A stretch of DNA of 13,543 nucleotides from Citromicrobium sp. (GTDB lineage Bacteria; Pseudomonadota; Alphaproteobacteria; Sphingomonadales; Sphingomonadaceae): assembly GCA_002712945.1 (NCBI GenBank), contig PAVA01000001.1, positions 1 through 13,543 on the forward strand, written 5' to 3'. Numbering within the stretch: the stretch's first letter is position 1; each line of letters starts with the position of its first letter. This document shows positions 1 to 13,543 of this stretch, piece by piece. The notes under the pieces were generated by a model. That model searched no databases. It saw nothing but the letters and a program-made list of their open reading frames with translations, and had not been told where the DNA came from. The translations under genes were made by a program, and so were the position numbers.

Positions 1-29
1 TTTGTAACGCAAAGTGAAAGGAGAAGAAG

Positions 30-530
30 ATGAATGTACGTGACTTGATTCCATGGTCTCGCAACGAAGAGCGTCTTCCGGTCGCTCGGCGAGACGAACG
101 CAGCGATCCGGTATCGACGCTGCGAAGCGATATCGACCGGCTGTTCGATCAGGCGTTCGGCTCGTTCGGGCTACCCAGCTTCGCATCGACGCCAAGCTGG
201 CCCAATATAGAAGTGCGCCGCAAGGACGGCGAACTGCTCGTCACAGCGGAAGTCCCGGGCATGTCCGAAGACGATATCGAGCTCTCGCTCGATGACGGCA
301 TGCTAGTCATCCGCGGAGAGCGGCGCTCCGAAGACGGCGAAGAAGGAAGCGGGTATTCCGAACGCTTCTACGGCCAATTCGAGCGCCGGATGAGCCTTCC
401 GCAGGGCATCCAAGAGGACAAGGTGAACGCGGAGTTCCGCGACGGTGTCCTCAGGATCCATCTGCCGCATGATGAGCAGATGTCGCTGTCAGGGCGACGT
501 ATTCCGATTAATCAGGAGACGCGCCACTAA
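30..530 (+). CDS. Small heat-shock protein, Hsp20/alpha-crystallin family
   Basis: This is a cytoplasmic ATP-independent holdase chaperone that keeps unfolding proteins soluble during heat or oxidative stress. The 166-residue length is typical. The N-terminal arm covers residues 1-55. The alpha-crystallin domain runs from about W57 to P146 and holds the family signature with G139-V140-L141 near its end. A C-terminal I-P-I motif (158-160) is the I-x-I anchor used for oligomer assembly. The start is well supported: an AAAGGAGAAG ribosome binding site lies just upstream of the ATG. A strong terminator follows the stop, so this gene probably ends its own transcript. The promoter would lie mostly outside the window. 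Paralogues such as ibpA or hspA cannot be told apart from sequence alone, so no symbol is given. Confidence 0.95.
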   Translation: MNVRDLIPWSRNEERLPVARRDERSDPVSTLRSDIDRLFDQAFGSFGLPSFASTPSWPNIEVRRKDGELLVTAEVPGMSEDDIELSLDDGMLVIRGERRSEDGEEGSGYSERFYGQFERRMSLPQGIQEDKVNAEFRDGVLRIHLPHDEQMSLSGRRIPINQETRH

Positions 531-541
531 CAGGCCTGAAG

Positions 542-574
542 AGGAGCGACCGGAAGATCCGGTCGCTCCTTTCT
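542..574 (+). terminator. Intrinsic terminator after hsp20
   Basis: A perfect 12-bp inverted repeat (AGGAGCGACCGG at 542-553 and its complement at 559-570) encloses a 5-base loop and runs into TTTCT. It starts 11 bases after the hsp20 stop codon. The stem is symmetrical and could also stop the convergent minus-strand transcript of the NDUFS4-like gene. Confidence 0.88.
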
Positions 575-605
575 CACCTTCACAAGTTCGAACTGCCGCT
601 TGGGT

Positions 606-920
606 CTAGCGCACTCTATAATCCCAATCCTGTCTTTTAGCGAAGGCAAGGGCGCTTTCGCGGTCCGGGAAAGTCAGGCGAACATGCCGGAACGGATCGT
701 CATTGCGCGTCCAACCAGTTAGCGGATCGGCACTCAAGGGGCAGGAAGCAGGAAATTCGAGCACCCATGGCCGTTTGCGCAAGCCGCCTTGCATCACGGA
801 TTTGGGCTCTCGATAAATCCGCGCCGTCGGGGCCTCGCTGGCTGTAAGGTTGGTGCCCGGTTGTTTCGGGTGACGGGGCGGAAGATTGTGCCCCAAACCT
901 GTCCTATCGGTGTTCGTCAT
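606..920 (-). CDS. NDUFS4-like complex I accessory protein (ETC complex I conserved region)
   Basis: The 104-residue protein matches the NDUFS4/ETC_C1 family, an accessory subunit of respiratory complex I in alphaproteobacteria and mitochondria. The N-terminal 30 residues look disordered. The conserved core begins at ARIYREPKSVMQ (33-44), continues through a KRPWVLEF strand (49-56) and the D-P-L-T-G-W segment (65-70), and ends with RLTFPDRESALAFA (81-94). It stops soon after the last strand, so the C-terminal tail of canonical NDUFS4 (the P-K-S-Y-x-D-N-F type end) is absent. The only in-frame ATG is used here. The frame stays open to a TTG at 998, which would add 26 residues. A purine-rich GACGAAAGG abuts the ATG, which is closer than an ideal ribosome binding site, so the start is uncertain. 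It is divergent from the permease gene across about 106 bp. A separate housekeeping copy in the genome is likely but cannot be seen here. Confidence 0.85.
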   Translation of the reverse strand: MTNTDRTGLGHNLPPRHPKQPGTNLTASEAPTARIYREPKSVMQGGLRKRPWVLEFPASCPLSADPLTGWTRNDDPFRHVRLTFPDRESALAFAKRQDWDYRVR

Positions 921-1026
921 CCTTTCGTCTCGGAAGCGTTTCGGGTTTGATATTTCGACGCGCCAAGGACGGAAATTGTTCCCGCGAGCGGCGCGCAATC
1001 GAAACTAGAGAAGAGCAAAGAAACCA

Positions 1027-2789
1027 ATGACGGCAGTGAGCGCCTTTGTGGAGAGCAATTCAGCCTGGATCGGGCTGTTTATATTGGGGCTCGTCCTTGC
1101 TGCATTCCTATCCGAGCGACTGGCGCCGGTCACGATCGCCCTGCTCGGAGCAAGCGTGATGCTGGCTCTCGGTTACCTGCCGCGCGGCGAGCTTCAGGCG
1201 GTGTTCGGCAACCCCGCACCGCTCACGATCGGCGCGATGTTCGTCCTCTCCGCCGCACTCGTCCGCACCGGAGTTATCGAGGCGCTCGCAAGTATCGCGA
1301 CGCGGCGCGCCGAGCGAACACCAAAACGTTCGATAACCGAGCTTCTCGGAGGCACTTTCTTTGCGTCGGCGCTCGTCAACAACACCCCTGTTGTCATCGT
1401 TCTTGCGCCCATTATCCGTCGGATAGCCGCCGTGGCAGGTTCAAGCGCACAGCAATTGCTGATCCCGCTCTCCTACCTCTCGATCATGGGCGGCTCGCTG
1501 ACCCTGCTCGGAAGCTCGACCAATCTTATCGTCGATGGCGTTGCGCAGCGCGCGGGAGTTGAGCCATTCGGAATATTCGAACTAACCGGCGTCGGTCTCA
1601 TCGCGGCTGGGGCCGGGATCGGCACCTTGCTGATTCTTGGCCGGTGGCTTTTACCCACAAGCGATGGACCAATGGATCGGTCCGGCGGTCGGCCATTTGA
1701 AGAGCGGTATCTGACTCGCATCCGGATAAGCGCGGCTTGCTTCTGGGTTGGACGGAGCCTCGAAGATATCGGCGCGTTGCAGCGCTCGGGTGTTCGGCTG
1801 CTTGCCGTCAGGAGAAGTGGCCACCTCACTCGCAATCCCGATCTGACGCTAGAACTGGGCGCGGGCGATGAGTTAGTCGTCGCCGCGGACCAGGCTGAAT
1901 TACTGGGTCTGAGCGAGGAACTCGGAGCCGACCTTGGTCTTGCAAAGCGCGACATCGCCAATTCGCCCGACGATCGGATCGTCGAAGCCTCCATCGGGCC
2001 ATCGCATCCGGCAATCGGCCAGCGCCTGACCGACATCCCGTTTCTAAACCGTAGCAACGGACGGGTTCTTGGTGTATCGCGTTCGCGGCATCTTCCCGGC
2101 CCCACACTTGAGACGGTGCGCGTCCGGCCTGCGGATCAACTCCTGATCCGCTGTCCGCCCGAAGCAGCCGCAGATATTCGCGACAACGTCAATCTCATCG
2201 CCGCTATAAGGCACCAATCGCCATTGCGACGATGTTCGCAATTATCGCTCTCGCCGCGCTACAGGTTGCGCCCATTGACCTTCTCGCCATACTCGGCGTC
2301 ACACTCGTTCTCGTAACGCGCTGCATCGATCCGGAAGAGGCCTGGCACGCTATCGAAGGCAATGTGATTGTCCTCATCTTCGGGATGCTGGCGATCGGGC
2401 TCGGGCTGCAAGGCGCTGGCACCGTCGATTTGATTGTCGACGCCGTCCAACCTGCGCTCACCGTTCTCCCGCTCTTTCTTGTGCTAATCCTCGTTTATGC
2501 GCTCACCTCGTTTCTGACGGAGGTGGTTACCAACAACGCTGTGGCCGTCATCATGACGCCCATCGTTATCGACCTTGCAAGCAGCATCGGGGTGGATACC
2601 CGCGCGCTTCTGCTAGTGGTCATGTTCGCCGCCTCGGCGAGCTTCGCCACTCCGATCGGGTACCAGACCAACACCATCGTCTATGGGACGGGCGGATACC
2701 GCTTCGTCGATTTCCTAAGGATCGGTCTGCCGATGAATGTGGTTGTGGGCCTCGTCACATGCGTCGCTATCTGGTGGATTTACGTGTGA
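1027..2789 (+). pseudogene. SLC13/DASS-family permease with two RCK_C domains, broken by a frameshift
   Basis: Two overlapping frames together make one SLC13-type (ArsB/CitT superfamily) transporter of about 590 residues. The first frame (1027-2316) has membrane helices up to about residue 210, including the N-N-T-P hairpin motif (118-121) and G-S-S-T-N-L-I (162-168). Two RCK_C (TrkA-C) regulatory domains follow at about 230-300 and 317-388. The homologous reading then moves to the other frame at about 2196-2210, where KAPIAIATMFAII begins the next helix. That frame runs to 2789 with the mirrored T-E-V-V-T-N-N-A-V motif and a terminal A-S-F-A-T-P-I-G-Y-Q-T-N segment. The first frame instead ends in about 35 unrelated residues. 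The change corresponds to one lost base or two gained. The ATG at 2232 has no visible ribosome binding site. The gene could be truly broken or the shift could be a sequencing error. Substrate (dicarboxylate, sulfate or other anion) cannot be read from the sequence. Confidence 0.85.
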
Positions 2790-2799
2790 GAGCCTGCCG

Positions 2800-4065
2800 A
2801 TGACCGATCTGCTCACCATCGTCACTATGCTTCTTGCCGCAAGTCTAGCCGTTACGCTGGTGTTGCAGCGTATCGGCGCGCCGACGCTTATCGGCTACAT
2901 CTTCGTCGGGCTGCTGATCGGCCCAACGGGAATCGGTCTGCTCGAAGCGAGCCCACAGCTCGAACTGCTTGCCGAGATCGGCATCGTCTTCCTCATGTTT
3001 TATGTAGGGCTGGAATTTTCGCTGCCCGTTCTGCTCGCATCGCGCCGCGCGGTGTTGGGACTCGGCGGTCTGCAGGTGCTTTGTACCAGCGCGATCGTTG
3101 CCGGGTTGGCGCTAGCGGCAGGGGTTTCGTTTCTGGCGGCGGTGCTCCTGGGAGGGGCGATCGCGATGTCGTCGACAGCGATCACGATCCGGCAGCTAAC
3201 CGACCAAGGCGAACTCGACACACCTCATGGGCGAGCATCGGTAGGCACTCTTCTGTTTCAGGACCTGGCGACCCTTCCATTTCTCGTACTCGTCGCGGCG
3301 CTTGGCGTCGCCGGAAGCGGTCACGGCGCAGCGACCGACACCGCAACCTATGGGCTGTCGACACCCGCGCAATCGATAGCAGCCATCGATGCTGGGGTCT
3401 GGAGCGAACTGGGCGCAAGGCTCGGCTTCGCGGTCCTCGCGTTCGGAGCTGCGCTTGTAGTTGGACGACGCCTACTCTTGGGGCTTGTCTCGCTTGTCCA
3501 TCGCACCGGTTCTCGCGAGCTGTTCATGCTTGCCATGCTAACGATCGTCATCGGAGCCGCCTGGGCTGTGCATGAGATTGGTTTATCACCCCCGCTTGGC
3601 GCCTTTCTCGCAGGAATGATTCTTGGCGAGACCCGTTTCAAAGACGATGCCGAAAGCGATATCGCGCCGTTTCGAGCAGTGTTGCTCGGCCTCTTCTTCG
3701 TTTCAGTGGGTCTGCGCGTCGATCTTTCGGCAATTGTTTCCAATGTCGATCTAGTTGTTGGCTTCCTCGCCGCGCTTGTCGTCGGTAAAGGTCTACTCGT
3801 CTTCACACTCGCACGCCTGCTGGGAGAACCTACCAAGGTGGCCGCGCGAACCAGCGTGATATTGGCGCATGGTGGCGAGTTTGGTTTGCTGATCCTGACA
3901 TTAGCGCTTTCGCAGAACGTCATCCCGGATGCGATCGGTCAGCCCCTGCTCGGTGCAATCGTCACTTCAATGATTATCGCGGCTTTTCTTATCAAGGTGA
4001 ATAAGCTCTTTGCTAAAGTGTCCGATCGTGGAAAACGGTTGTCGAACGACCGCTCTCGGGAATGA
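2800..4065 (+). CDS. Kef-type cation:proton antiporter (CPA2), lacking the TrkA-N domain
   Basis: This 421-residue inner-membrane protein belongs to the CPA2 monovalent cation:proton antiporter family, whose members exchange K+ or Na+ for protons. Visible landmarks are I-G-Y-I-F-V-G-L-L-I-G-P (31-42), FLMFYVGLEF (64-73), the QDLATLP ion-pathway segment (154-160) and H-G-G-E-F-G (357-362). About twelve hydrophobic segments fill residues 4-402. The ATG at 2800 is chosen because it aligns with the normal start of the family. An upstream in-frame start at 2737 would overlap the permease gene and add an unlikely N-terminus. It follows the permease stop by 10 bases, so the two probably share a transcript. 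The protein ends about 20 residues after the last helix, where Kef proteins normally continue into a cytosolic NAD-binding TrkA-N domain. No other frame downstream encodes that domain. It could be a naturally short antiporter or a gene truncated at a recombination junction. Confidence 0.88.
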   Translation: MTDLLTIVTMLLAASLAVTLVLQRIGAPTLIGYIFVGLLIGPTGIGLLEASPQLELLAEIGIVFLMFYVGLEFSLPVLLASRRAVLGLGGLQVLCTSAIVAGLALAAGVSFLAAVLLGGAIAMSSTAITIRQLTDQGELDTPHGRASVGTLLFQDLATLPFLVLVAALGVAGSGHGAATDTATYGLSTPAQSIAAIDAGVWSELGARLGFAVLAFGAALVVGRRLLLGLVSLVHRTGSRELFMLAMLTIVIGAAWAVHEIGLSPPLGAFLAGMILGETRFKDDAESDIAPFRAVLLGLFFVSVGLRVDLSAIVSNVDLVVGFLAALVVGKGLLVFTLARLLGEPTKVAARTSVILAHGGEFGLLILTLALSQNVIPDAIGQPLLGAIVTSMIIAAFLIKVNKLFAKVSDRGKRLSNDRSRE

Positions 4066-4162
4066 GCTTTGGCCCCTCCGAAAGTCTGCAAGTGGGGTCG
4101 GAAGCCGAATGGCAGCTCTCGGTGTGCAAAAGCCCAATAGCGGACGGTCTGCAATCGGCCCA

Positions 4163-5038
4163 TTATCCGCCAGTCGACATCCACCTTCCAGGCAGGCTAG
4201 CCGCAAGCTTGTCACGCTGATTGCTCGATGCCCCGAAAAGGACAAGCATTACGGAGTGTGGTGTCACCTGCGATTTGCCGCGAGGGTCCGAAAAGCGCAA
4301 ACGTCCTTGCAAGAAGAACACGTCGCCATCCCTCGCCAGAACTTCATGAAACCATGCCGAGTCCGTTCGCGTCGGAACTAGGCAAACGACTGTCAGCACA
4401 TTCCCTTTCTCCCATTGCTCGTGCGCACGACGCAGCCATTTCTGTTGCTCGGAGAACGGCGGGTTTACGAATACCATGCGGCCAGACCATGGATCGCGAA
4501 GTCCATCGTCACCTTCTTCAAGCACGAAGCGCCGCCGCGCTTTAACTGGGCTCAACTTATGCCCACACGGATCGAGATCCGGCTTGCCGAACACCGTATA
4601 GATCGTTTCTAGAAATTCTGGCGGAGTGAAGCGGCTGTCGCGGTCGGCCTTGTCTCCTGCTCCCCAGTAGGCCCGTTCTGGTGCCCGGCGCCGCACTTTC
4701 GGCGCCAACTTCGCCATCAGCTTCATCAAGCTAGAAATGGAGCCGCCTCCGGCTTCCAGTTGAAGCACTGTGGTGGGGGAGAGTCCGCACTTCTTCCCAG
4801 TCGTTTCGCGCGACCAGCCCATTTTCTCTCGACGCCTGCGAAGTTGGTCGGCAAGCGTCAGCCCGGGACCAATGCCAGTGAGCTGAAAGTCCAGCGCATT
4901 CACAACGGCCACCAAAGTTTCGACCGAACCTACGCCGTTCTCTAGCCGCTTGATTGACTGCGCGGATCGCCCGACACGCTCGGCGAGAAATCGCTGCGAC
5001 CATCCGCAATTCCTCCGCGCGGCCTTGATTTCGTCCAA
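4163..5038 (-). CDS. Phage-type DNA N6-adenine methyltransferase with two N-terminal HTH (XRE) domains
   Basis: The C-terminal half matches the phage Dam-like adenine methyltransferase family: F-T-P-P-E (137-141), D-L-D-P-C (154-158), the catalytic N-P-P-F (192-195, a variant of D/N-P-P-Y), then P-T-R-T-D-S-A-W-F-H-E (222-232) and Q-G-R-L-R-F (244-249). The N-terminal part contains two helix-turn-helix modules of XRE type, one at about 3-48 (W-S-Q-R-F-L-A-E-R-V-G) and one at about 65-110 (W-S-R-E-T-T-G-K-K-C-G-L-S). Two such domains in front of this enzyme are unusual and suggest self-regulation or targeting to a specific site. The start codon is not ATG: TTG at 5036-5038 is given, but CTG at 5039-5041 has better spacing (8 bases) from a perfect AAGGAGG at 5050-5056. 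It lies 125 bp downstream of the type III res gene on the same strand and converges on the antiporter gene. Confidence 0.82.
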   Translation of the reverse strand: MDEIKAARRNCGWSQRFLAERVGRSAQSIKRLENGVGSVETLVAVVNALDFQLTGIGPGLTLADQLRRRREKMGWSRETTGKKCGLSPTTVLQLEAGGGSISSLMKLMAKLAPKVRRRAPERAYWGAGDKADRDSRFTPPEFLETIYTVFGKPDLDPCGHKLSPVKARRRFVLEEGDDGLRDPWSGRMVFVNPPFSEQQKWLRRAHEQWEKGNVLTVVCLVPTRTDSAWFHEVLARDGDVFFLQGRLRFSDPRGKSQVTPHSVMLVLFGASSNQRDKLAASLPGRWMSTGG

Positions 5039-5163
5039 CAGAATGTGAGCCTCCTTGGTTTCAGATTCTGTTGAATAGTCTAACGCACAGCGACGGGTTG
5101 ATCACCACCTGCTGGATGCAGTCTTCGGCGAATGTAGATGCAAAAAAGGGGCTGCGCGAGATA

Positions 5164-7776
5164 CTAGTCTGTGGCCGCTAGCTTGGCGTCCAGCCAAGCA
5201 GGAAAATCCGGATCCTTCGCCCGCACGGCCATCCAGAACACGATGTTGCCGCCACTGATCTCTTCCAGACGAGCGCCGATGTTCGCCTTCTCGGCGGTGT
5301 CTTCGGTGTTGGCCAAGTGCGCCCCCTTATATTCGAGGACGAGCATGCGGCCGTCGGTCAGTTCCGCGACAAAATCCGGATAAAACCGGTCCGTGGATGT
5401 GGGGAGCCAGTATGAATGCGATCCCCGCACGATATTCCGGACCCAATGCTTGATCCCCGGATGATCATCGAGTGCGACGGCACAGCGAAATTCCTCGCCG
5501 CCATCGCGCAGGTCGTCCGGGCGAGGATAGAAGTGCTTCTTCCAGGTGTGACTGCCTGAATAAGGCCGCGGGGGTTGGTACCGGCCTTCTTCGAACCGGA
5601 ATGCATTTTCGCCAAGCCCAAGCGACGGCGCGATGTCGCCGAGCAGCATCTGCATGCCGGTTTGCCCGGCTTCGGCACGGAGCTGCTTCACGCGGTCCGC
5701 GATGGCGCGCCGTAGCACATCCTTCGCCCGCACCAGGGCAGCAAGGGATACGCCCTCGTTATCGACCAGATTGACTACCACCCTCCGGCAGTATTCGAGG
5801 AATACCGGCTGCGAGATGTCGATCTGCGATGTCGTCCGATCCAGCCAGCGCGAGAGGTCGGCCGCAGTCCATGCGGTTTCGTCTTCAAGCTGGAGAATTT
5901 GCTGCGAGGCTTCGCGGCTGATGCGAACCTGTCCATCAGCGACATCGACGGTCACGACATCCGGCGCCTCGGACAGCGCGAAACCAGGCAGCGACGGATC
6001 GACACCGTCCAATGTCCATCCGGCGAGATCGAGCAGGGTCGTGGGCTCGACCAGGTCGAGTTCGCCATACTGCTCGAGCACCATGCCCGGAATGGTGAAG
6101 CTTTCGCCACGTTGGGAGGGCGTCGCAGCGGCTTGGCGTCGCTCCTTGTGCGCGGCGATCGATGCGCTGGGATCGTTGTCACCGGCCAAAGGGGCGAGGA
6201 TCGCGCCGATCTGGTCGAGGACTTCATCGCTCGCTTCCGGGTCGATAACCACGGAAACGCCCTCACCCTCACCGACAATGGTCAGGGCATCGCGCACTTC
6301 TAGTGGCATCGCGGCGACATCCGGCGCTGCGGGAAGCGACACCGGGGCAAGCGGCGAGCGCCCGGGCATGGGCAACACCGCAGCTGCTGCATCGGCGGCT
6401 CGCTGGGCGATAATCTCATCGCGGGCCGTGCGCTCGTCGAAGCCCATCGCGACCAGCGTGTCCTTCAATTTATTGGCGGCGGCGTGGAAGCCGATACCCG
6501 TCACATGGGCGTAGGCGCGATTGAGCTCCTCGACTGGTCGGCGTTTTGCGAAGGGCATGCGCAGCACACGCCCCAGCAATTGTTCCACCGCCGTAGCTGA
6601 TTGGATATTGGCGACCGAGCAGAACACATACGCGAAGGAGCAGTCCCAGCCTTCGCGCAGCGCTTCGACTGTGATGACATGCTCGATCTTGCAGTCCGGG
6701 GCGAACAGATCGATCCCGTCGAGTTCGCGCTGGTCGCCCGTGGCGACCGCTATGGCGTCCTCGGCTATGCCATGCTCGATCAGCTTGGCTTTGACGACAT
6801 CCACAGTGGCTTCAGCCCCTTCGGTACGCGCCTGTGCCTGGTAGAGCGCGATGGGACGGATCGGCTCGTTCGCTTCGGTTGCGATACGGTCGAGCCCAGC
6901 GCGTTGCTGCAGCGCGTGGATGATCGCCGACTCCCATCCGGTGTGCTGGGTCAGATGAATCGGCAGTTTGATCATCTGCTCCGCTTTCAGCTCGTCGGCC
7001 GTGGCGGACACGATGACGTTCGACTGCAGCGGCGTCGCGGTGAACTCAATGATGGCCGAGGGATCGAGGCGCGCGCCCGTCTCTTCGGACAGGCCGGTGA
7101 CGAAGTTGTGGGCCTCGTCCACGATCATCACGGGCCGCACGAGGCGCATGACATTCGCGAAGGACCAGCTGATTTCGCCTGGGCGCTTCTCCGCCGTGGC
7201 GGGATTGCGCATCAGCCCATCCGGAAGCGCCCTGCCCTTGAAGAACGCCTCGAAATTCTCGTCGTCTTTGTAGACGTTGCGCTGCTCCGCCTGCGCGATG
7301 CGGAAGGACTGGACCGTTGCCACGATCACGTGCGCCATGGTGGCGACATCCTGCGGCGTGATCTGGCGCCGCTCATCGATGCCGAGGACGCGGACAGCGC
7401 CGCCGAAGGGCTTCTCCAGCGCGGCACGATATGGATGGCCGGGTGTTTTGAGCGCACCCAGCGTCTGTTCGGCAATCTTCGCTGACGGCACCAGCCACAG
7501 GGCCACCGGGTATTGCGGCGCGTCCATGCGATGTTTGTGCGCGATCCCGACAGAGTGGGCGCCGAGCAGCGTCTTGCCCCCACCAGTTGGCAGGCGAAGG
7601 CAGCAATAGGGCACGCGAGGCAGGCTCTGCAACGGCTCGTAAGCGGAGGCGTAGAAACCCGGTTCGCCGACCTGGCAGGCAATGTTGTAGGCTACCGTAT
7701 GCGGCTTGGTGACCGCTTCGGACAGGAAGACGTCGAGGGCGTCGAGGGCGCGCTCCTGATATTTCTTGAGCTGCAT
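5164..7776 (-). CDS. res: Type III restriction enzyme Res subunit (DEAD/DEAH helicase-nuclease)
   Basis: The 870-residue protein is the ATP-driven helicase and nuclease subunit of a type III restriction-modification system. It cuts unmodified foreign DNA when bound to its Mod partner. The helicase core shows Walker A P-T-G-G-G-K-T (63-69), D-E-A-H (220-223), T-A-T-P (246-249) and the arginine-finger motif L-G-R-V-L-R (401-406). The C-terminus has a PD-(D/E)xK nuclease signature: P-D at 800-801, then E815-Y-K817. All key residues are present and no stop interrupts it. The ATG at 7774-7776 overlaps the mod stop codon as ATGA, so translation is coupled to mod. Because type III Res depends on Mod for site recognition and stability, the broken mod upstream suggests this subunit is now inactive or unexpressed. 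The alternative, an orphan DEAH helicase-nuclease, is less likely given the overlap with mod. Confidence 0.92.
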   Translation of the reverse strand: MQLKKYQERALDALDVFLSEAVTKPHTVAYNIACQVGEPGFYASAYEPLQSLPRVPYCCLRLPTGGGKTLLGAHSVGIAHKHRMDAPQYPVALWLVPSAKIAEQTLGALKTPGHPYRAALEKPFGGAVRVLGIDERRQITPQDVATMAHVIVATVQSFRIAQAEQRNVYKDDENFEAFFKGRALPDGLMRNPATAEKRPGEISWSFANVMRLVRPVMIVDEAHNFVTGLSEETGARLDPSAIIEFTATPLQSNVIVSATADELKAEQMIKLPIHLTQHTGWESAIIHALQQRAGLDRIATEANEPIRPIALYQAQARTEGAEATVDVVKAKLIEHGIAEDAIAVATGDQRELDGIDLFAPDCKIEHVITVEALREGWDCSFAYVFCSVANIQSATAVEQLLGRVLRMPFAKRRPVEELNRAYAHVTGIGFHAAANKLKDTLVAMGFDERTARDEIIAQRAADAAAAVLPMPGRSPLAPVSLPAAPDVAAMPLEVRDALTIVGEGEGVSVVIDPEASDEVLDQIGAILAPLAGDNDPSASIAAHKERRQAAATPSQRGESFTIPGMVLEQYGELDLVEPTTLLDLAGWTLDGVDPSLPGFALSEAPDVVTVDVADGQVRISREASQQILQLEDETAWTAADLSRWLDRTTSQIDISQPVFLEYCRRVVVNLVDNEGVSLAALVRAKDVLRRAIADRVKQLRAEAGQTGMQMLLGDIAPSLGLGENAFRFEEGRYQPPRPYSGSHTWKKHFYPRPDDLRDGGEEFRCAVALDDHPGIKHWVRNIVRGSHSYWLPTSTDRFYPDFVAELTDGRMLVLEYKGAHLANTEDTAEKANIGARLEEISGGNIVFWMAVRAKDPDFPAWLDAKLAATD

Positions 7777-8997
7777 CAGCGCGCCTTCACATCGTACGGG
7801 GTTTGCTTGAAGGTGACATTCGCCGCCTTCAATCTTGCCGACGGCACCTTGCAGGCTTCGCCATAGATAACCCAGGGGCCATCATGATCAGGAAGCTGCG
7901 CCTTCAGGTCCGCGAGAATGGGCGGGGTAAGGACGTTGCCGCCTTCCGGACGCCGATCGCCGAGGATACCGTTATAGAGCAACGCATACGCGACGCCATC
8001 GTGCACCCCCAGAACCGGCGATGTCGCAGCCTCGCCGCGGGCGGCAGGCTGGCCGGTTTCGGCGAACCAGATGTGCGCGGCGAGTGCGTCGAAACCGATG
8101 TCCGGCTCGATCCGGCCGGTTGCGTCGAAAGCTGGCGGGCCGAGACGATAGTAGCGATATCCGCTACCACCTTGCCATTCGACAGCCTCCGAAATGCCGC
8201 CCTGTTCGCCTTCGATAACTTTGTCGAGGCGCGGCTTACAGTGGGTTTCGGCATGATTGCCCATCTCGATGCCGATCCAGTGCCTGCCCATTTTATGCGC
8301 CACTGCCGCTGTTGTGCCAGAGCCGAGGAAGGAGTCGAGGACGAGGTCGTCAGGATTGGTGGCTATTTGTAGAATGCGTTGCATCAAGCGCTCTGGTTTT
8401 GGCGTTCCAAAGCTTACGCCAGCCCCGAACAGCGCGTTTGCCTCCTTTTTGCTCTCGTCCGTATGTCCAACTTCCTCGTGAGGCCACCACGTCCAAGGCA
8501 CCAGACCCTCAACTTCGGATAGGTATCGAACCACACTAGGTTGGGCATTCCCATCTTTGCCCCAATAGATTCGGTCAGCTTTTCGTAATTTTAGAAATTC
8601 ACTTTCGACCATCGACCAGCAACGACCTTCCGGAGGCGTATGCACCTTGCCGTTATCGGCGACGATTTCATACATCTGATTGGGTCGATAGCCCTGCGCC
8701 GTCATCGGCAATCCGCGCCAGCGCTTTGTAGGATCCGTTTCCTTTGGGTTTTTCGGATTCTTGTAAATCTTCGCCTGCTTTTCATCGAGAGGAAGGCGAT
8801 TTCTCCGTGTTTTGAATTCATCCGGGTTCTTAGCATACACGGCGATGTATTCGTGGACGTCGCCTATAGCACCTCTATTTTCGCGCGAGTATCGCTTTTG
8901 CCAGACTGGACTGGCAATGAAGTTCCGCCGACCGAAAACCTCGTCCATTACAACTTTGAGATAGTGTCCTTCGTTGTCGTCAATCGAAACCCAGATA

Positions 8998-9005
8998 CTA
9001 CCATC
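8998..9005. repeat. Target-site duplication, left copy
   Basis: CTACCATC here is repeated exactly at 11318-11325, directly outside the two inverted repeats of the IS. Eight bases is the expected duplication length for the IS1595 family. Deleting one copy together with the element restores the mod reading frame. Confidence 0.95.
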
Positions 9006-9028
9006 GGGGTGTATCCCCTTCGCATACG
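9006..9028. repeat. IS1595 terminal inverted repeat, left
   Basis: The first 23 bases match the inverted right end (11295-11317) at 21 positions: 15 identical bases, a two-base mismatch (CG against GC), then CATACG. The first 13 bases, GGGGTGTATCCCC, are themselves a small palindrome with GGGG and CCCC arms. Confidence 0.93.
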
Positions 9029-9088
9029 GAGTTTCGCGTAGCCCATTGATTCCCTGACTGACGCGGCATAGCTTCCGCACTCCTAATC

Positions 9089-9096
9089 GGGGGGGG
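9089..9096 (+). promoter_or_regulatory. Eight-G tract at the ribosome binding site of the cargo gene
   Basis: A homopolymer of eight G ends three bases before the ATG at 9100 and occupies the place of a Shine-Dalgarno sequence. Slippage in such tracts can change the spacing to the start codon and so the level of translation. No experimental support is visible here. Confidence 0.45.
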
Positions 9097-9099
9097 TGT

Positions 9100-9984
9100 A
9101 TGGATCAGGCTCGAGCTAGCTTGTATTTCGATATTGCGCAGGGCCAGCTTGCTGATCTTGAAGTGGTCGCGAGAACCTCGATTGCTTGGGCAGCGCTAGT
9201 AAAGGAAGTCGCATTCGTTTTGGACCCATCGGCAGAGGTCCAAGTTCAATTCGTTACGAGCACGCCTGGCAGCGCTTTCGTCAACAACCTGACAACAGCA
9301 GTAGCCAAAGCCGCGAAGGAAAATCCGCTCATTGCGGGGCCGCTTATTGCGATAGCGACGACATTCGCGCTCGCTATCCCTGTGCACCTCGCAGACGACG
9401 CTGCGAAGGATGTTCTGGCGAAAGTTGGTCATGTGCATACCGATGAAATCAGCGATGAGAGTGCCCGCAAAATCGCTGAAGAAGTCGTAAAGCTTGAACG
9501 CAACGGCATCGCTCGAGAGCAGCGCAGGGAGCTATACAGGCAGCCGGAGCGAGATGAGAAAATAGTCGGATTTGGGATCGGGCGGACCTTCGATGTGCGG
9601 CCGGAAATTGTTGTCCCGCGATCCGATTTTCGAGACAGGTTCGGGGCCGGAGAGGTGGTCCAGACCAGCTCCGAAATCCGGTATGATATCCAAGAGCGCT
9701 ACCCAGTGGAAATTCTGCGATCGTCCAGCCAAGCGAAAGAAGCGATGTGGAAGTTCGATTCAGACAGTGGCGAGTTCAGCGCCAAAATGAAGGATAGGGC
9801 ATTTCTCGACGCTCTCCGATCCGGCCACACCGGCTTAGAGATCGGCGAAGGTGTCGAGATAAAGATTGACCTCAAAACGAAGCTAGAGCGCCGCGATGGG
9901 GTTTGGACAATCGTGGAACGGACTGTTGAGCGGGTTCACACGCCGAAGTCTCGACAATCGGAGCTACAGTTCGCGCACGACTAA
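9100..9984 (+). CDS. Unknown 294-residue protein, IS cargo, one probable membrane segment
   Basis: I do not recognise this family. Residues 18-60 look like a folded N-terminal domain with alternating strands (for example E46-V-Q-V-Q-F-V). A hydrophobic segment at about 76-96 could cross the membrane once. It is followed by a charged helical stretch (about 99-150, E-E-V-V-K-L-E-R) and a C-terminal region rich in charged strands (about 153-280). There is no signal peptide and no catalytic motif I can name. The ATG follows a run of eight G (9089-9096), which may serve as the ribosome binding site. The gene begins 94 bp inside the left end of the IS, so it travels with the element. It overlaps the convergent 68-residue gene by 21 bases. 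The lack of stops over 885 bases and the sensible protein composition argue that it is real. Confidence 0.75.
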   Translation: MDQARASLYFDIAQGQLADLEVVARTSIAWAALVKEVAFVLDPSAEVQVQFVTSTPGSAFVNNLTTAVAKAAKENPLIAGPLIAIATTFALAIPVHLADDAAKDVLAKVGHVHTDEISDESARKIAEEVVKLERNGIAREQRRELYRQPERDEKIVGFGIGRTFDVRPEIVVPRSDFRDRFGAGEVVQTSSEIRYDIQERYPVEILRSSSQAKEAMWKFDSDSGEFSAKMKDRAFLDALRSGHTGLEIGEGVEIKIDLKTKLERRDGVWTIVERTVERVHTPKSRQSELQFAHD

Positions 9985-10170
9985 AAACACGAAGCGACCC
10001 AACAGCGCAACGAAGGCTGCGGCCCCGACTAGTATGCCAAGGTGTGCATCGATGGCGAGCAAACCAGTTAGCAGGATGAGCGTGCAGAGTCCGGCCAAAA
10101 AGACCTTTCCCCATCCACCTTTCTGATTCGCGCTCATCACGCTGCGAGTTGGCATAAAGCTGCTCATCAT
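9964..10170 (-). CDS. Small two-helix membrane protein, IS cargo
   Basis: The 68-residue frame encodes a hydrophilic N-terminus with a basic G-G-W-G-K stretch, followed by two hydrophobic segments at about residues 22-40 and 44-66, separated by an aspartate and histidine turn (I-D-A-H). This is the layout of a small helical-hairpin inner-membrane protein. Three in-frame ATG codons are possible: 10168-10170, 10165-10167 and 10135-10137. The last would give M-S-A-N-Q-K and 57 residues. Only a weak GGATAG precedes the first. It is convergent with, and overlaps, the 294-residue cargo gene at their 3' ends. I do not recognise a family, and a short hydrophobic frame can arise by chance, so confidence is moderate. 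Confidence 0.5.
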   Translation of the reverse strand: MMSSFMPTRSVMSANQKGGWGKVFLAGLCTLILLTGLLAIDAHLGILVGAAAFVALLGRFVFLVVREL

Positions 10171-10202
10171 GCTATTCTATCCAGCATAAACATATAGCAT
10201 GA
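10167..10202. promoter_or_regulatory. Inverted repeat between divergent small cargo genes (possible operator)
   Basis: TCATGCTAT (10167-10175) is repeated in inverted orientation as ATAGCATGA (10194-10202), nine of nine bases, with 18 bases between. It sits at the start of the 68-residue minus-strand gene and 60 bases upstream of the 57-residue plus-strand gene. An extra GCAT within the spacer adds partial symmetry. It may be an operator or promoter element of the divergent pair. No binding protein is known. Confidence 0.35.
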
Positions 10203-10262
10203 ACGACAGCTTTCACCAAACGCGAGTCATTTCAAGAACTTGATTCAAAAGGAAGAATCTGG

Positions 10263-10436
10263 ATGGCGAGGCTAACACTGGCACAGGCACAGGCCGAAGG
10301 TCGCCTTGACGAATTCATCGCCGAACACAAAGGCGAAACCGGCGACCAATTGGAGCTTGAGCGGGTTATCCGTTCAATGGCCGGAACGTCGAAAGAAGTT
10401 CCGGAAGCATCGTCTCCGGACGATTGCGACGATTGA
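10263..10436 (+). CDS. Small acidic 57-residue protein next to the transposase
   Basis: An ATG preceded by AAAAGGAAGAATCTGG opens a 57-codon frame. The protein starts M-A-R-L-T-L-A-Q-A-Q-A-E, continues as a predicted charged helix through R-L-D-E-F-I-A-E-H-K, and ends in an acidic S-P-D-D-C-D-D tail. The good ribosome binding site and biased composition suggest a real gene. Its last 71 bases overlap the 3' end of the transposase gene on the opposite strand, so each transcript is antisense to the other at the end. I recognise no functional family. It may be a component often found beside IS1595 transposases or simply cargo. Confidence is limited by the short length. Confidence 0.5.
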   Translation: MARLTLAQAQAEGRLDEFIAEHKGETGDQLELERVIRSMAGTSKEVPEASSPDDCDD

Positions 10437-11268
10437 AGCGATATTCGAATTCCTTGACGTAGCTGTTCAGGTGCTTCGCGCTCACGCTGGTGTGAGTGCC
10501 ATTGATCGAGCATTTCAGGTGCCGCCAGAAATTCTCGATCCCGTTGACCGTGACCGTCTCGGCAAGGCGGTAATCGTAATAGGCGTATTCCTCGGCACCG
10601 TGGTTCACGCGAGCATGGCGGTAGCCGATATTCGACAGGCTGGCGTAGCTACGAAGCTCGTCAGTATGGACGTTGCCGCCGATCCGGACGTTGGCGGTCA
10701 CAAACGGCTCTAACGTGGCGCGGCGCTGGTTCGGGACCACTTGGGCCACCAGATCGCCACCGCGTTCCAGAGCGCCAACCACGACCGTCTTGGCGGCGCT
10801 GCCGCGATTGTGAGTGCCGCGCTTCACGCCGCCCATGAGAGTTTCGTCGATTTCAACGTTCGTGCCTTCGCCGCCAATCGGCTTGTCACCGTCAACGTCC
10901 GCCATGTGTTCGCGGATCAGCTTCGCCATGCGCCAAGCAGTCTTGTAGGTGACGCCAAGCTGGCGCTCCAATTCCTTGCCGCTCACGCCGTGCCGGGTGA
11001 CGGTGAAAAGGTGGATGGCATAGAACCAGAGTTGCAGCGGGGTCCGCGTCTTTTCGAAGGGAGTGCCCACGGTAGGGTGCAGGTGGTGACCGCACCACTG
11101 GCAGGAATAGGCGCGCTCGGCCTTGATCCGGAACCACTTACTTTCGCGCTCGCACTTGGGGCACTCGAAGCCCTGACCGAAGCGAACTTTAAACAGGTGA
11201 TTGAGGCAGGTTTCGTCGTCAGGAAAGAGACGGAAGAAGGCGGCGGTCGTGAGGGGCTTCGTTTTCAT
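10366..11268 (-). CDS. IS1595-family transposase
   Basis: The 300-residue DDE-type transposase moves the 9006-11317 element. An N-terminal zinc ribbon has C36-P-K-C39 and C56-Q-W-C59. A helix-turn-helix-like segment lies at about 97-120. The catalytic region (the ISXO2-like/DDE_Tnp_IS1595 fold) shows V-E-I-D-E-T (138-143), H-T-D-E-L-R-S-Y (201-208) and the V-N-G-I-E-N-F-W-R-H-L-K block (241-252), followed by H-L-N-S-Y-V-K-E-F-E-Y-R-F-N-R-R (266-281). Length and motifs are normal for the family, with no frameshift. The ATG at 11266-11268 lies 49 bases inside the right end, and GGGG just precedes it. A TATACAAT sequence close upstream could serve as a -10 element. Confidence 0.95.
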   Translation of the reverse strand: MKTKPLTTAAFFRLFPDDETCLNHLFKVRFGQGFECPKCERESKWFRIKAERAYSCQWCGHHLHPTVGTPFEKTRTPLQLWFYAIHLFTVTRHGVSGKELERQLGVTYKTAWRMAKLIREHMADVDGDKPIGGEGTNVEIDETLMGGVKRGTHNRGSAAKTVVVGALERGGDLVAQVVPNQRRATLEPFVTANVRIGGNVHTDELRSYASLSNIGYRHARVNHGAEEYAYYDYRLAETVTVNGIENFWRHLKCSINGTHTSVSAKHLNSYVKEFEYRFNRRNRPETMLPELLSTFRPLNG

Positions 11269-11294
11269 ACCCCATTGTATAGCTCAATCCGTTA

Positions 11295-11317
11295 CGTATG
11301 GCAAGGGGATACACCCC
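11295..11317. repeat. IS1595 terminal inverted repeat, right
   Basis: Read on the minus strand this end is GGGGTGTATCCCCTT followed by GC and CATACG, matching the left end at 21 of 23 bases. It adjoins the right copy of the target duplication. Confidence 0.93.
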
Positions 11318-11325
11318 CTACCATC
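11318..11325. repeat. Target-site duplication, right copy
   Basis: CTACCATC is identical to the copy at 8998-9005. In the mod frame it encodes part of the D-G-S junction, which reads E-D-G-S-I-W-V once the element is removed. Confidence 0.95.
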
Positions 11326-11737
11326 TTCGGCGAGCAGCTCGCGCAGCAACACCAGCCTAGGATAGATCATCGCCAACCATTTTGCGTGTTCGAGATTATC
11401 ATCGTATTCTTCGAACGCACTTTGGGTGTTGTAGGGCGGGTCGATGTAGATGCATTTTACTCGCCCCGCATAGAACGGAAGCAATGCCTTCAAGGCGTCG
11501 AGATTGTCGCCCTGTATGAGCATATTGGCGGGGTCACCATTGCCCCCGTCAAGCTCCGGCACCGCTTCCAGCATTCGGTAAGGCACCTTTGCCGCGGCGA
11601 CGATGTCTTCGCTGCGGCTCATCCAGTCGAGTATCGGCAAAATCCACCCCTTGTCTTGAGGGCGGTCAATAGCGCGTGGGACCGCCATTCGCCAGTAATG
11701 CCTCGTTATTTTCAACGTACACGCGACAGGTTGCCCG

Positions 11738-11764
11738 CCGGTCAGACCGAGAGAGTCCGACCGG
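11738..11764 (-). other. Hairpin in the gap upstream of mod
   Basis: On the minus strand a 10-bp stem with one G-U pair (CCGGTC-G-GAC and its partner) encloses a 7-base loop. It lies between the exonuclease stop and the mod start. There is no following T tract, so it is not a standard intrinsic terminator; it could act as an attenuator, protect mRNA ends or be incidental. Confidence 0.35.
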
Positions 11765-11780
11765 CAGCCAGTCTTCGCGC

Positions 11781-12590
11781 CTAAGCGGCGAGATCGAATT
11801 CCGCCGCCATCTCCTCGGCCATCCGCATGCGCAACTCAGCGAGCGGTTCGGCAATGCGGGTTTCATCGCCGGTTCGGCGCAGGAACCAGTCGGCGAGGTT
11901 ATAGATCGCGGCAGGCATATCATAGATCGCGGCAGGCATATCGATGCTGATCCGGCCTTGAACACGCAGCCAAGCCAATGTCACCATGGCCGTGAGCACG
12001 ACATCGCAGCTGACGTGACGGCGCACGTCGATCCATTCTTCCGCGGTCCGCGGCAGTTCGACCTCCGTTTTGCCCACGAACAGTTCGCGCGGCATTCCCA
12101 TCCGCAATCCGATTTCGGATAGATGCGCCCAGTCCCGCCCCTGGCCTTTCAGCTCAAGGGCAAGGTCCATGTGCGGCCTCATTTCTCCGTAACGCACGCG
12201 CTGGTTTGAGCGAAGCTGGTCCGGCATGAGCAGACCATGCTCCATGGCGCATAGTGTCAGCAGCGGCAGTTCCGCGGCGAGACCACCGTAAGTCACAACC
12301 CGGTGATCCGGGCGATATCGGATGTGGTCGAGCAGACCTTCGACGACAGCCTGCTCATCGCCGTATTCCCTTTCCGTCCACGCGGTCAGGCCTTCGATAC
12401 CCATCGTGCGATCATCGTTGACGACGAGGTCAAGCGCCGCAGCAGCGAAGATCCGTTTGCATGCTTGGTTGTGGCGCTTGCGACCTTGCCGCTCCAGCTT
12501 CGCCACCCCCGCCGCATCGATGGCGCGGTAATCTTCGTGCAGATACTCGTCCCACGCGGACTCGGTATCGATGAACGTCAATTTCAGCAT
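11781..12590 (-). CDS. PolB-like 3'-5' exonuclease (DEDD, RNase H fold)
   Basis: The 269-residue protein resembles the predicted PolB-like 3'-5' exonuclease family. Exo motif I is F-I-D-T-E (6-10), with D8 and E10 as metal ligands. The second strand-loop is V-V-T-Y-G-G (98-103), which aligns with the usual T-Y-N-G segment but lacks an obvious aspartate in the normal position. A H-M-D-L-A-L-E-L block (140-147) matches the family's H-x-D-L motif. Motif III is H192-V-S-C-D196, an H-x3-D arrangement. The start is well supported by AAGAAGGA eight bases before the ATG at 12588-12590; an upstream start at 12623 has no such support. A perfect 21-bp duplication adds a second D-M-P-A-A-I-Y (217-230). 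It precedes mod on the same strand. With the partly altered second motif, enzymatic activity is uncertain. Confidence 0.7.
   Translation of the reverse strand: MLKLTFIDTESAWDEYLHEDYRAIDAAGVAKLERQGRKRHNQACKRIFAAAALDLVVNDDRTMGIEGLTAWTEREYGDEQAVVEGLLDHIRYRPDHRVVTYGGLAAELPLLTLCAMEHGLLMPDQLRSNQRVRYGEMRPHMDLALELKGQGRDWAHLSEIGLRMGMPRELFVGKTEVELPRTAEEWIDVRRHVSCDVVLTAMVTLAWLRVQGRISIDMPAAIYDMPAAIYNLADWFLRRTGDETRIAEPLAELRMRMAEEMAAEFDLAA
11901..11942. repeat. Perfect 21-bp tandem duplication in the exonuclease gene
   Basis: The 21-base unit at 11901-11921 is repeated exactly at 11922-11942. It is a multiple of three, so the frame is kept and the peptide D-M-P-A-A-I-Y appears twice. Identity of the copies suggests a recent slippage event or a length-variable site. 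Confidence 0.95.
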
Positions 12591-12608
12591 CGTAATTTTC
12601 CTTCTTCT

Positions 12609-12625
12609 GGTTGGACCCGCCAACC
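12609..12625 (-). other. Short hairpin before the exonuclease ribosome binding site
   Basis: GGTTGG and CCAACC form a perfect 6-bp stem with a 5-base loop in the 51-bp gap between the 194-residue gene and the exonuclease gene. It lies a few bases upstream of the exonuclease ribosome binding site. It has no T tract; it may be incidental. Confidence 0.3.
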
Positions 12626-12641
12626 GCCCTCCTTCCAGTGC

Positions 12642-13226
12642 TTAAAACCCGACGGGCCGCGCCCGTTCGATCGCTCTCCACGCTTGCCAAGCCGCGCTGA
12701 GCGAGTTCCGCTCATGCCGGGAAGAGTGCGCCCACATGAAGGCCGCCCACAGGCATTGCGCTTCATCCGGCGCCTTGCGCGACCGCGACAGAATGTTCGA
12801 ACCGGGACCTGCGCGCTCAATCTGATAAGCCGCAGCGATCTCTTCCAGCACGCCGTTCGCGCACTCCAGCGGCATGATGTCGAGATCCGCGCGTTCCCGT
12901 TGCAGTAGTTGCAGGTCGGCCGGCGGAAGCGGCCCGCCGCTGGCGAACGCATGGCGCAGGTAATGCTGCGGCGTGCGCGAAGCGCGTGCGATCAGCGTTG
13001 CGCCGTCCGGAATGCGTTTGGTGATACCGGCAAGGATTTCCGCGCGCGTCGCCAATCTGTCGAAGGCGCGATGGTCGATGGAGAACCGCGCTACCGATTC
13101 CGAGCAGCGGGTGACGGTGAAGATGGCGGTCGATCGGATCGCCGATCGTGTCGCGAATTCATTGCGGTCGCGGATGATCGCGAGCGAGCATACGGTTTGC
13201 GGATGTCGCCTCGAAATATCTGCCAT
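12642..13226 (-). CDS. Unknown 194-residue protein
   Basis: I do not recognise this family. The chosen ATG (13224-13226) is preceded by AAGGGA at seven bases, and gives M-A-D-I-S-R-R-H. The frame is open further upstream but that stretch crosses a terminator hairpin and looks non-coding. The N-terminal half contains alternating strands (C-S-L-A-I-I and A-I-F-T-V-T). The middle is helical and arginine-rich. A tryptophan-rich C-terminal segment (C-L-W-A-A-F-M-W-A-H) is followed by A-A-W-Q-A-W-R-A. There is no signal peptide or membrane segment. It lies 51 bp upstream of the exonuclease gene on the same strand, so the two may be co-transcribed. Base composition and lack of stops support a real gene. 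Confidence 0.65.
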   Translation of the reverse strand: MADISRRHPQTVCSLAIIRDRNEFATRSAIRSTAIFTVTRCSESVARFSIDHRAFDRLATRAEILAGITKRIPDGATLIARASRTPQHYLRHAFASGGPLPPADLQLLQRERADLDIMPLECANGVLEEIAAAYQIERAGPGSNILSRSRKAPDEAQCLWAAFMWAHSSRHERNSLSAAWQAWRAIERARPVGF

Positions 13227-13252
13227 GGGAGAGTCCCTTGCTGTAGGACGAG

Positions 13253-13288
13253 AAAGGGCGGCGCTCCCTGCTGGAAGCGCCGCCCTTT
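13253..13288 (-). terminator. Intrinsic terminator between the edge gene and the 194-residue gene
   Basis: A perfect 13-bp inverted repeat (AAAGGGCGGCGCT at 13253-13265 and its complement at 13276-13288) encloses a 10-base loop. On the minus strand the stem runs into TTTCTC. It follows the stop of the edge gene by about 20 bases and lies upstream of the 194-residue gene, so that gene probably needs its own promoter or readthrough. Confidence 0.8.
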
Positions 13289-13309
13289 GTGTCTGGTGGG
13301 TGAAAGCGG

Positions 13310-13543
13310 TCAGGCCGCGGCTTTTTCGACCTCGACTGCGGTGCCGTCTGCATGGAATGCGAAGGTGGTCGCCTCCCATACGCCGCTTTCTAGCACTTCA
13401 TCCAGATTGTCGGCAGTGACCTTGATCCGGATGGCGGCTTTGGAATGCGCCATCTGCTTTGTAGCCTTCTTCTGCACCGGCATTTCGCGTAGCACCCCGC
13501 GCTCGTCAGCCGCGAATTGGCGGGTGCCGTCGTCAGTCACCAG
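13310..13543 (-). CDS. Unknown protein, C-terminal part (runs off the window edge)
   Basis: The minus-strand frame is open to the last base, so the true start probably lies outside the window. About 78 codons are visible. The end of the protein has alternating strand and charged segments (A-A-I-R-I-K-V-T-A-D-N-L, then T-T-F-A-F-H-A-D-G-T-A-V-E-V) and finishes E-K-A-A-A. An internal ATG at M-A-H-S-K-A-A could instead start a 47-residue protein. No family recognised. A strong terminator follows the stop. Confidence 0.55.
   Translation of the reverse strand: MVTDDGTRQFAADERGVLREMPVQKKATKQMAHSKAAIRIKVTADNLDEVLESGVWEATTFAFHADGTAVEVEKAAA

Follow-up and report, generated by a model that had tools for sequence, protein, structure and literature searches.

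A cargo-bearing IS1595-family element in a type III mod gene of Citromicrobium sp., with candidate defence genes in related cargo slots

When an insertion sequence (IS) that carries a gene of its own sits inside a restriction-modification (R-M) gene, what has the cell lost and what might it have received? This question is raised by a 13,543-nucleotide stretch of Citromicrobium sp. DNA (GenBank assembly GCA_002712945.1, contig PAVA01000001.1, positions 1 to 13,543; hereafter the window), in which a 2312-bp element of the IS1595 family (9006..11317) lies between the two pieces of mod, the methyltransferase gene of a type III R-M system. Based on the comparisons described below, we consider it probable that a single transposition of this element into codon ~122 of mod inactivated the mod-res system. 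The same reading holds that the group to which the element belongs combines a fixed backbone (ends, transposase, small convergent open reading frame (ORF) and promoter-like cargo end) with an exchangeable slot, occupied here by a gene of the LAPAL/PDC-S42 family.

The element and the split mod gene

The element is delimited by terminal inverted repeats that match at 21 of 23 bases (9006..9028, + strand, on the cargo side; 11295..11317, - strand, on the transposase side), and the octamer CTACCATC flanks it exactly (8/8) on both sides (8998..9005 and 11318..11325). By chance, two predicted borders would share an exact 8-bp match in ~1 of 65,000 cases, and the inverted repeats add evidence of their own; 8 bp is the typical length of a target duplication in the IS1595 family. 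The transposase itself (10366..11268, - strand, 300 residues) combines a zinc ribbon with an ISXO2-like DDE domain (PF12762, 1.8e-36, and PF12760, 1.1e-10, both over cut-off) and reaches 186.9 bits against a cut-off of 75 for NF033547 in NCBIfam, which places it in the IS1595 family. Assignment of the whole as a cargo-bearing IS1595-family element thus draws on the transposase family, on the ends with their duplication and on sister elements with like ends. An earlier sequence-only reading had described a 2312-bp cargo-bearing IS with an 8-bp duplication inside a type III mod; both borders and octamer were confirmed, and the octamer is indeed specific to this copy, being absent elsewhere in the window on either strand.

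Both pieces of mod are on the - strand. The 5' piece (11318..11688, taken from the ATG that matches 530-residue homologues) holds the catalytic motif DPPY and matches the PADLOC MTase_III profile PDLC03644 at 2.8e-46, and the 3' piece (7776..9005, 409 codons including one copy of the duplication) holds the region between the motifs and the S-adenosylmethionine (SAM) motif FLGSGTT, and matches the same profile at 7e-133; they cover profile positions 1-129 and 125-542, respectively. The insertion point, at codon ~122, falls between DPPY on the right piece and FLGSGTT on the left, a separation already drawn by the sequence-only reading and visible in the translations. The two pieces, kept apart in the comparison, were matched to the best 120 of 8000 scored Mod candidates (all 8000 passing), and 119 of these 120 listed homologues matched both. 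On uninterrupted homologues the two pieces abut, with an overlap of two residues in 113 cases, of one residue in 4, and a 12-residue gap in 2, the two-residue overlap being the codons inside the 8-bp duplication. The nearest listed homologues (P0001-P0003) are uninterrupted proteins of 530 to 554 residues, 93-98% identical over the right piece and ~96% identical over the left. That removal of the element would give an in-frame Mod is borne out insofar as the pieces abut; the 508 residues earlier attributed to this product correspond to one choice of start (ATG 11622), whereas the two nearest homologues have 530. Neither piece contains an internal in-frame stop. On these alignments, loss of mod function through the insertion is very likely, and because neither piece has decayed, the insertion, though undated, is probably recent, in line with the earlier description of the modification as recently lost.

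Downstream, res (5164..7776, - strand) is an uninterrupted ORF of 870 residues, the full length previously proposed, and matches PADLOC REase_III PDLC03650 (3e-172, residues 2-852) and Pfam ResIII. By eye we recognised the motifs GGGKT, DEAH, TATP, GRVLRMP and a nuclease-like PD..EYK in its translation. As in known type III systems, DPPY precedes FLGSGTT, a Res with helicase and nuclease-like motifs adjoins mod, and the two genes share TGATG (a single shared base, 7776, in place of the ATGA overlap stated by the sequence-only reading); unlike in such systems, mod is interrupted. The closest DNA to this locus in the plasmid collection, a Sphingomonas naphthae plasmid (L010, 6234-8979; 75% identity over 674 bp), has its methyltransferase annotated in two parts and a 498-residue helicase-like protein in place of the 870-residue Res, and a broken locus of such kind is therefore not unique to the window. 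Six Mod relatives at 46-64% identity were found in viral contigs (L051-L056).

What, then, becomes of Res? It had been called silent, a label that goes beyond the sequence: a 434-residue frame opens at a GTG within the element and continues across what is left of mod as far as the TGATG junction, so that translation into res is not obviously blocked, and a simple promoter scan of 8900-11450 gave 2 sites against 1.1 expected. Target recognition of type III enzymes resides in Mod, and for this reason a Res deprived of its recognition subunit should be harmless; 'disarmed' is a safer term than 'silent'. Following type III biology, a single transposition would have placed the element in mod, and recognition, modification and hence restriction would have been lost together, an outcome that the cell would survive; the host would tolerate the insertion because recognition sits in Mod, restriction and modification falling at once. 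The 434-residue frame also permits a harsher scenario, in which Res stays active with the fragment as an unmodified restriction enzyme. The fragment is open from inside the element to TGATG and retains the between-motif region and the SAM motif, but ~120 N-terminal Mod residues are missing from it and such an activity should be lethal to a host whose sites are unmethylated, making this scenario scarcely credible. Nor do we favour a reversible switch, as the sequence-only reading had suggested, in which precise excision would be frequent enough to toggle the type III system within the population. With an exact duplication and both mod pieces undecayed, precise loss of the element should leave the frame open; however, an exact duplication marks every fresh IS insertion and is no argument for switching. 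As a rule, DDE elements seldom excise precisely, and neither an excision product nor an unoccupied site at this same locus was seen, the ~96% identical homologues being from other strains, not siblings. The idea of a switch thus finds no support and we regard it as very improbable. A single inactivating transposition remains our preferred explanation of the split gene.

Sister elements, their backbone and their cargo slot

Transposase scans, end-pattern scans and plasmid searches led to 11 other loci that we group with the window element (L001, L002, L003, L004, L005/L008, L006, L007, L011, L047, L049 and L050). The terminal ends of group elements are GGGGTKTATCCCMTTNNCATACG type IS1595 ends, and the elements span 1.7-2.8 kb. 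Both ends and an exact 8-bp duplication are present in six elements (window, L001, L005/L008, L006, L011 and L047), and no common target is apparent by eye among the six duplications. L047 departs furthest from the end pattern (4 and 5 mismatches), its end pair being chosen partly by its duplication, and the L006 transposase frame is broken. L003 has both ends, one of them at a contig end, and L002, L004, L007, L049 and L050 are truncated, nested or decayed, or have no recognised end. In all seven elements with both ends (the six and L003), the stretch from the transposase 3' end to the other terminus holds an ORF of at least 196 residues on the opposite strand.

Several details of these loci are worth recording. 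L005 and L008 are two ends of one contig; they have 185 nt in common, with slight differences, and carry the same 8-bp duplication, and this contig may be circular, with the element spanning its ends. The L004 element (4952-8355) contains another transposase-like ORF, which by eye resembles IS1595 and points to a nested insertion. The plasmid transposase search matched 78 records, the best 60 of which were listed, and the two above 50% identity among the matches listed were taken further; one of them, L050 (a Geminicoccaceae plasmid), has no recognised element ends. Beside its IS1595 transposase, an ORF on the other strand (5015-5536) matches PADLOC Cas2 at 8.5e-10, and is kept outside the count of slots given below. 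Candidates dropped from the group were 25 of the 30 loci from the first end-pattern scan (no full end), L033 (an end pair without matching duplication and a transposase that looks different) and L009 (transposase at 33%, no such ends).

The clearest sign of exchange comes from the close pair of window and L001, whose transposases are 91% identical and whose DNA is 83% identical over 1007 bp (element positions 1309-2312), similarity ending at the cargo. The window DNA match likewise stops at element position 1303 with L002 and at 1300 with L007. Between the window and L001 cargo, no blastn match was obtained at E<=1e-5 and no BLASTP match between the main cargo proteins. Across nine cargo slots (window, L001, L003, L006, L007, L008, L011, L047 and L049), the one BLASTP link among the main cargo proteins at E<=0.01 is that of window with L008 (35% over 291 residues), and the L007 cargo is tied to these two by profile. 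Unrelated cargo is thus found on close backbones and, as judged from these alignments, the cargo therefore differs on a nearly constant backbone.

Two further parts of this backbone were characterised. A small conserved ORF of 57 residues (10263..10436, + strand) lies on the strand opposite the transposase and overlaps its 3' end. In tblastn with three queries, one or another gave a match at E ~0.001 or less in 10 of the 11 other loci (E-values being for a small set), L049 being the exception; the L006 match came from the L011 query, the L004 match covers 24 residues from the L007 query, and those in L047 and L050 are weak. Across the group this ORF is ~55 residues long and has an acidic tail; it is possibly a transposition regulator. 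Between the repeat and the cargo, promoter-like boxes (TTGATT-17-TAGCTT, 9046..9074, + strand) were noted, which the promoter scan of 8900-11450 mentioned above, being stricter, did not list. Six of nine elements have the motif TTGAC at nt 24-48 of the cargo-side end, against a mean of 0.19 and a maximum of 3 in 2000 shuffles; the window is one of the three without it and has the variant TTGATT instead. Summed over the nine cargo-side ends, the best sigma-70-like scores reach 71, where shuffled sequences average 60.6 and none of 1000 shuffles attained 71. Common descent of the ends accounts for part of these signals, which fall short of proving a promoter; the cargo may be transcribed from this end of the element.

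IS1595-family elements with passengers, the 'transporter IS', are already known (Siguier, Gagnevin and Chandler 2009, as cited in PMC3129680). Like these, the window element joins an IS1595 transposase, inverted-repeat ends and an 8-bp duplication to a gene unrelated to transposition. Unlike them, at least as they are cited in that paper, close backbones here hold unrelated cargo, a small conserved ORF and a promoter-like cargo end, and some of the cargo is candidate defence.

Cargo identity and the question of defence

The window cargo gene (9100..9984, + strand) encodes 294 residues of the LAPAL/PDC-S42 family, with 63.2 bits for NF053583 (cut-off 60) and 4e-8 for PADLOC PDC-S42 (no cut-off shown), PDC being a phage defence candidate in the terms used in PMC11514479. 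It also matches phrog_3243 (function unassigned) and has no Pfam match. Set against the family, it passes the NCBIfam cut-off narrowly, but it is distant from most relatives (11-17% identical to 61 of 68 aligned) and is carried inside an IS. Residues 75-99 are hydrophobic, a hint of membrane association, and a structure model gave no safe fold. The L008 and L007 cargo belong to the same family (PDC-S42 8e-11 and 1.4e-38; NF053583 65.5 and 143 bits, respectively), and in the records behind the group loci the LAPAL profile matched 2 of 10, which are these two cargo genes, and 1 of 14 control genomes (Bacteroides ihuae). Protein searches for relatives of the window cargo returned 5 directly and 184 with a profile, without genomic context; scans of genome contigs and of viral contigs with the cargo, and tblastn in plasmids and phages, confirmed no relative. 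By tally, PDC-S42 occupies 3 of the 9 slots (window, L008 and L007) and a DUF4747 pair 1 of 9. Two other assignments were discarded: L006 as a distant PDC-S42, proposed by eye, received no support from profile comparison, and L049 (288 and 143 residues), RexAB-like by size, had no family support.

The DUF4747 pair is the cargo of L003, outside the window: a DUF4747 protein (8e-24, over cut-off) precedes a second protein that has several hydrophobic segments and a weak match to RexB (0.0013), a layout that resembles the RexAB and CarolAnn gp43-44 exclusion systems. The accounts in PMC7542560 and PMC6426606 describe two-gene exclusion systems (lambda RexAB, CarolAnn, Sbash, Butters) with a DUF4747 cytoplasmic partner and a four-pass membrane partner, and DUF4747/CarolAnn is placed among immune operons in PMC13373217. 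L003 nevertheless differs from RexAB in the weakness of its RexB match and in having no direct sequence link to lambda RexA.

A defence role for the slot has to be set against a series of observations that weigh against it. The NCBIfam name of NF053583 is 'LAPAL motif-containing putative phage structural protein', and PDC-S42 is a candidate defence family only. The L001 and L047 cargo have weak PADLOC matches (0.0067 and 0.0041), and those of L006, L011 and L049 match no PADLOC family at E<=0.1. The link between DUF4747 and RexA stands on HHpred matches called weak by the authors themselves in the accounts of PMC7542560 and PMC6426606, with E 140 given for Butters gp30 (PMC7542560); lambda RexA matched the Pfam family RexA in our scan but not DUF4747, and neither RexA nor RexB was linked to the L003 or L049 cargo by single-sequence comparison. 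Relatives of PDC-S42 and DUF4747 are also found in plasmid regions whose flanks, as far as they were retrieved, show no IS1595 transposase (2 of the 4 matching records looked at). Finally, in a control set of 45 flanking ORFs of at least 140 residues from 10 loci, 21 PADLOC families were matched at E<=0.01, each in a single member (14 methyltransferase, 2 PD-Lambda-5_B, 2 DndC, SspD, mad1 and mad8); because PADLOC families also occur among these proteins, we do not claim that the cargo is enriched in defence. The Pfam families of the 45 proteins (best 25 of 31) include portal, lysozyme, integrase and antirepressor, and several of the flanking contigs look like phage or prophage. In the literature searched, and the claim is limited to that search, we found no paper on PDC-S42, nor on LAPAL with phage, and the paper that paired IS1595 with defence, phage and cargo was off the subject, as judged by title and abstract.

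The element could be an ordinary passenger IS that inactivated mod at a site hit by chance and whose cargo merely travels along, taking no part in defence. Passenger genes have been described in IS copies, as the IS1595 account in PMC3129680 indicates, the six duplications have no evident target in common, and three slots (L006, L011 and L049) are without a defence match; against it, one candidate defence family fills three of the nine slots, and a fourth (L003) holds DUF4747 with a membrane-like protein. This explanation, to which we give considerable weight if somewhat short of an even chance, is compatible with the core of what we propose, the inactivation of mod by a backbone with a variable slot, and denies the defence part alone. 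On that part, the window cargo, read inward from the element end, may confer a different, single-gene protection. The odds that it is an anti-phage gene, in which case the cell traded one defence for another, are about even. More ambitiously, the IS1595 subgroup could be a minimal shuttle that moves anti-phage systems of one or two genes (fixed backbone, transposase, small regulator-like ORF, built-in promoter end and exchangeable defence slot) that here exchanged defence for defence in a single transposition, a proposal that we advance tentatively and consider rather unlikely.

Surroundings and significance

The remainder of the window contains other features. Next to res, a single ORF (4163-5038) joins two helix-turn-helix matches to a phage-type Dam adenine methyltransferase. 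Beside the R-M region (30-4065), an Hsp20-like ORF (by eye), a transporter and a KefB-like antiporter (under the curated cut-off) stand in a row, which we take to be reminiscent of stress-tolerance islands. Overlapping frames at 1027-2789 (429 and 185 residues) appear by eye to be one transporter broken by a frameshift near 2230-2316, either real or a sequence error. On the other side of the element, a perfect 21-bp tandem duplication (11901-11942) is in frame and repeats DMPAAIY in a predicted 3'-5' exonuclease-like protein (11781-12623).

Disruption of a mod gene by an IS is in itself ordinary; the less ordinary part is an exchangeable cargo slot with candidate defence genes. If this slot is truly loaded with anti-phage genes, elements of 1.7-2.8 kb that are usually annotated as plain insertion sequences would move single defence genes, and the cargo slots of IS1595 elements would be a simple place to seek ones as yet untested.

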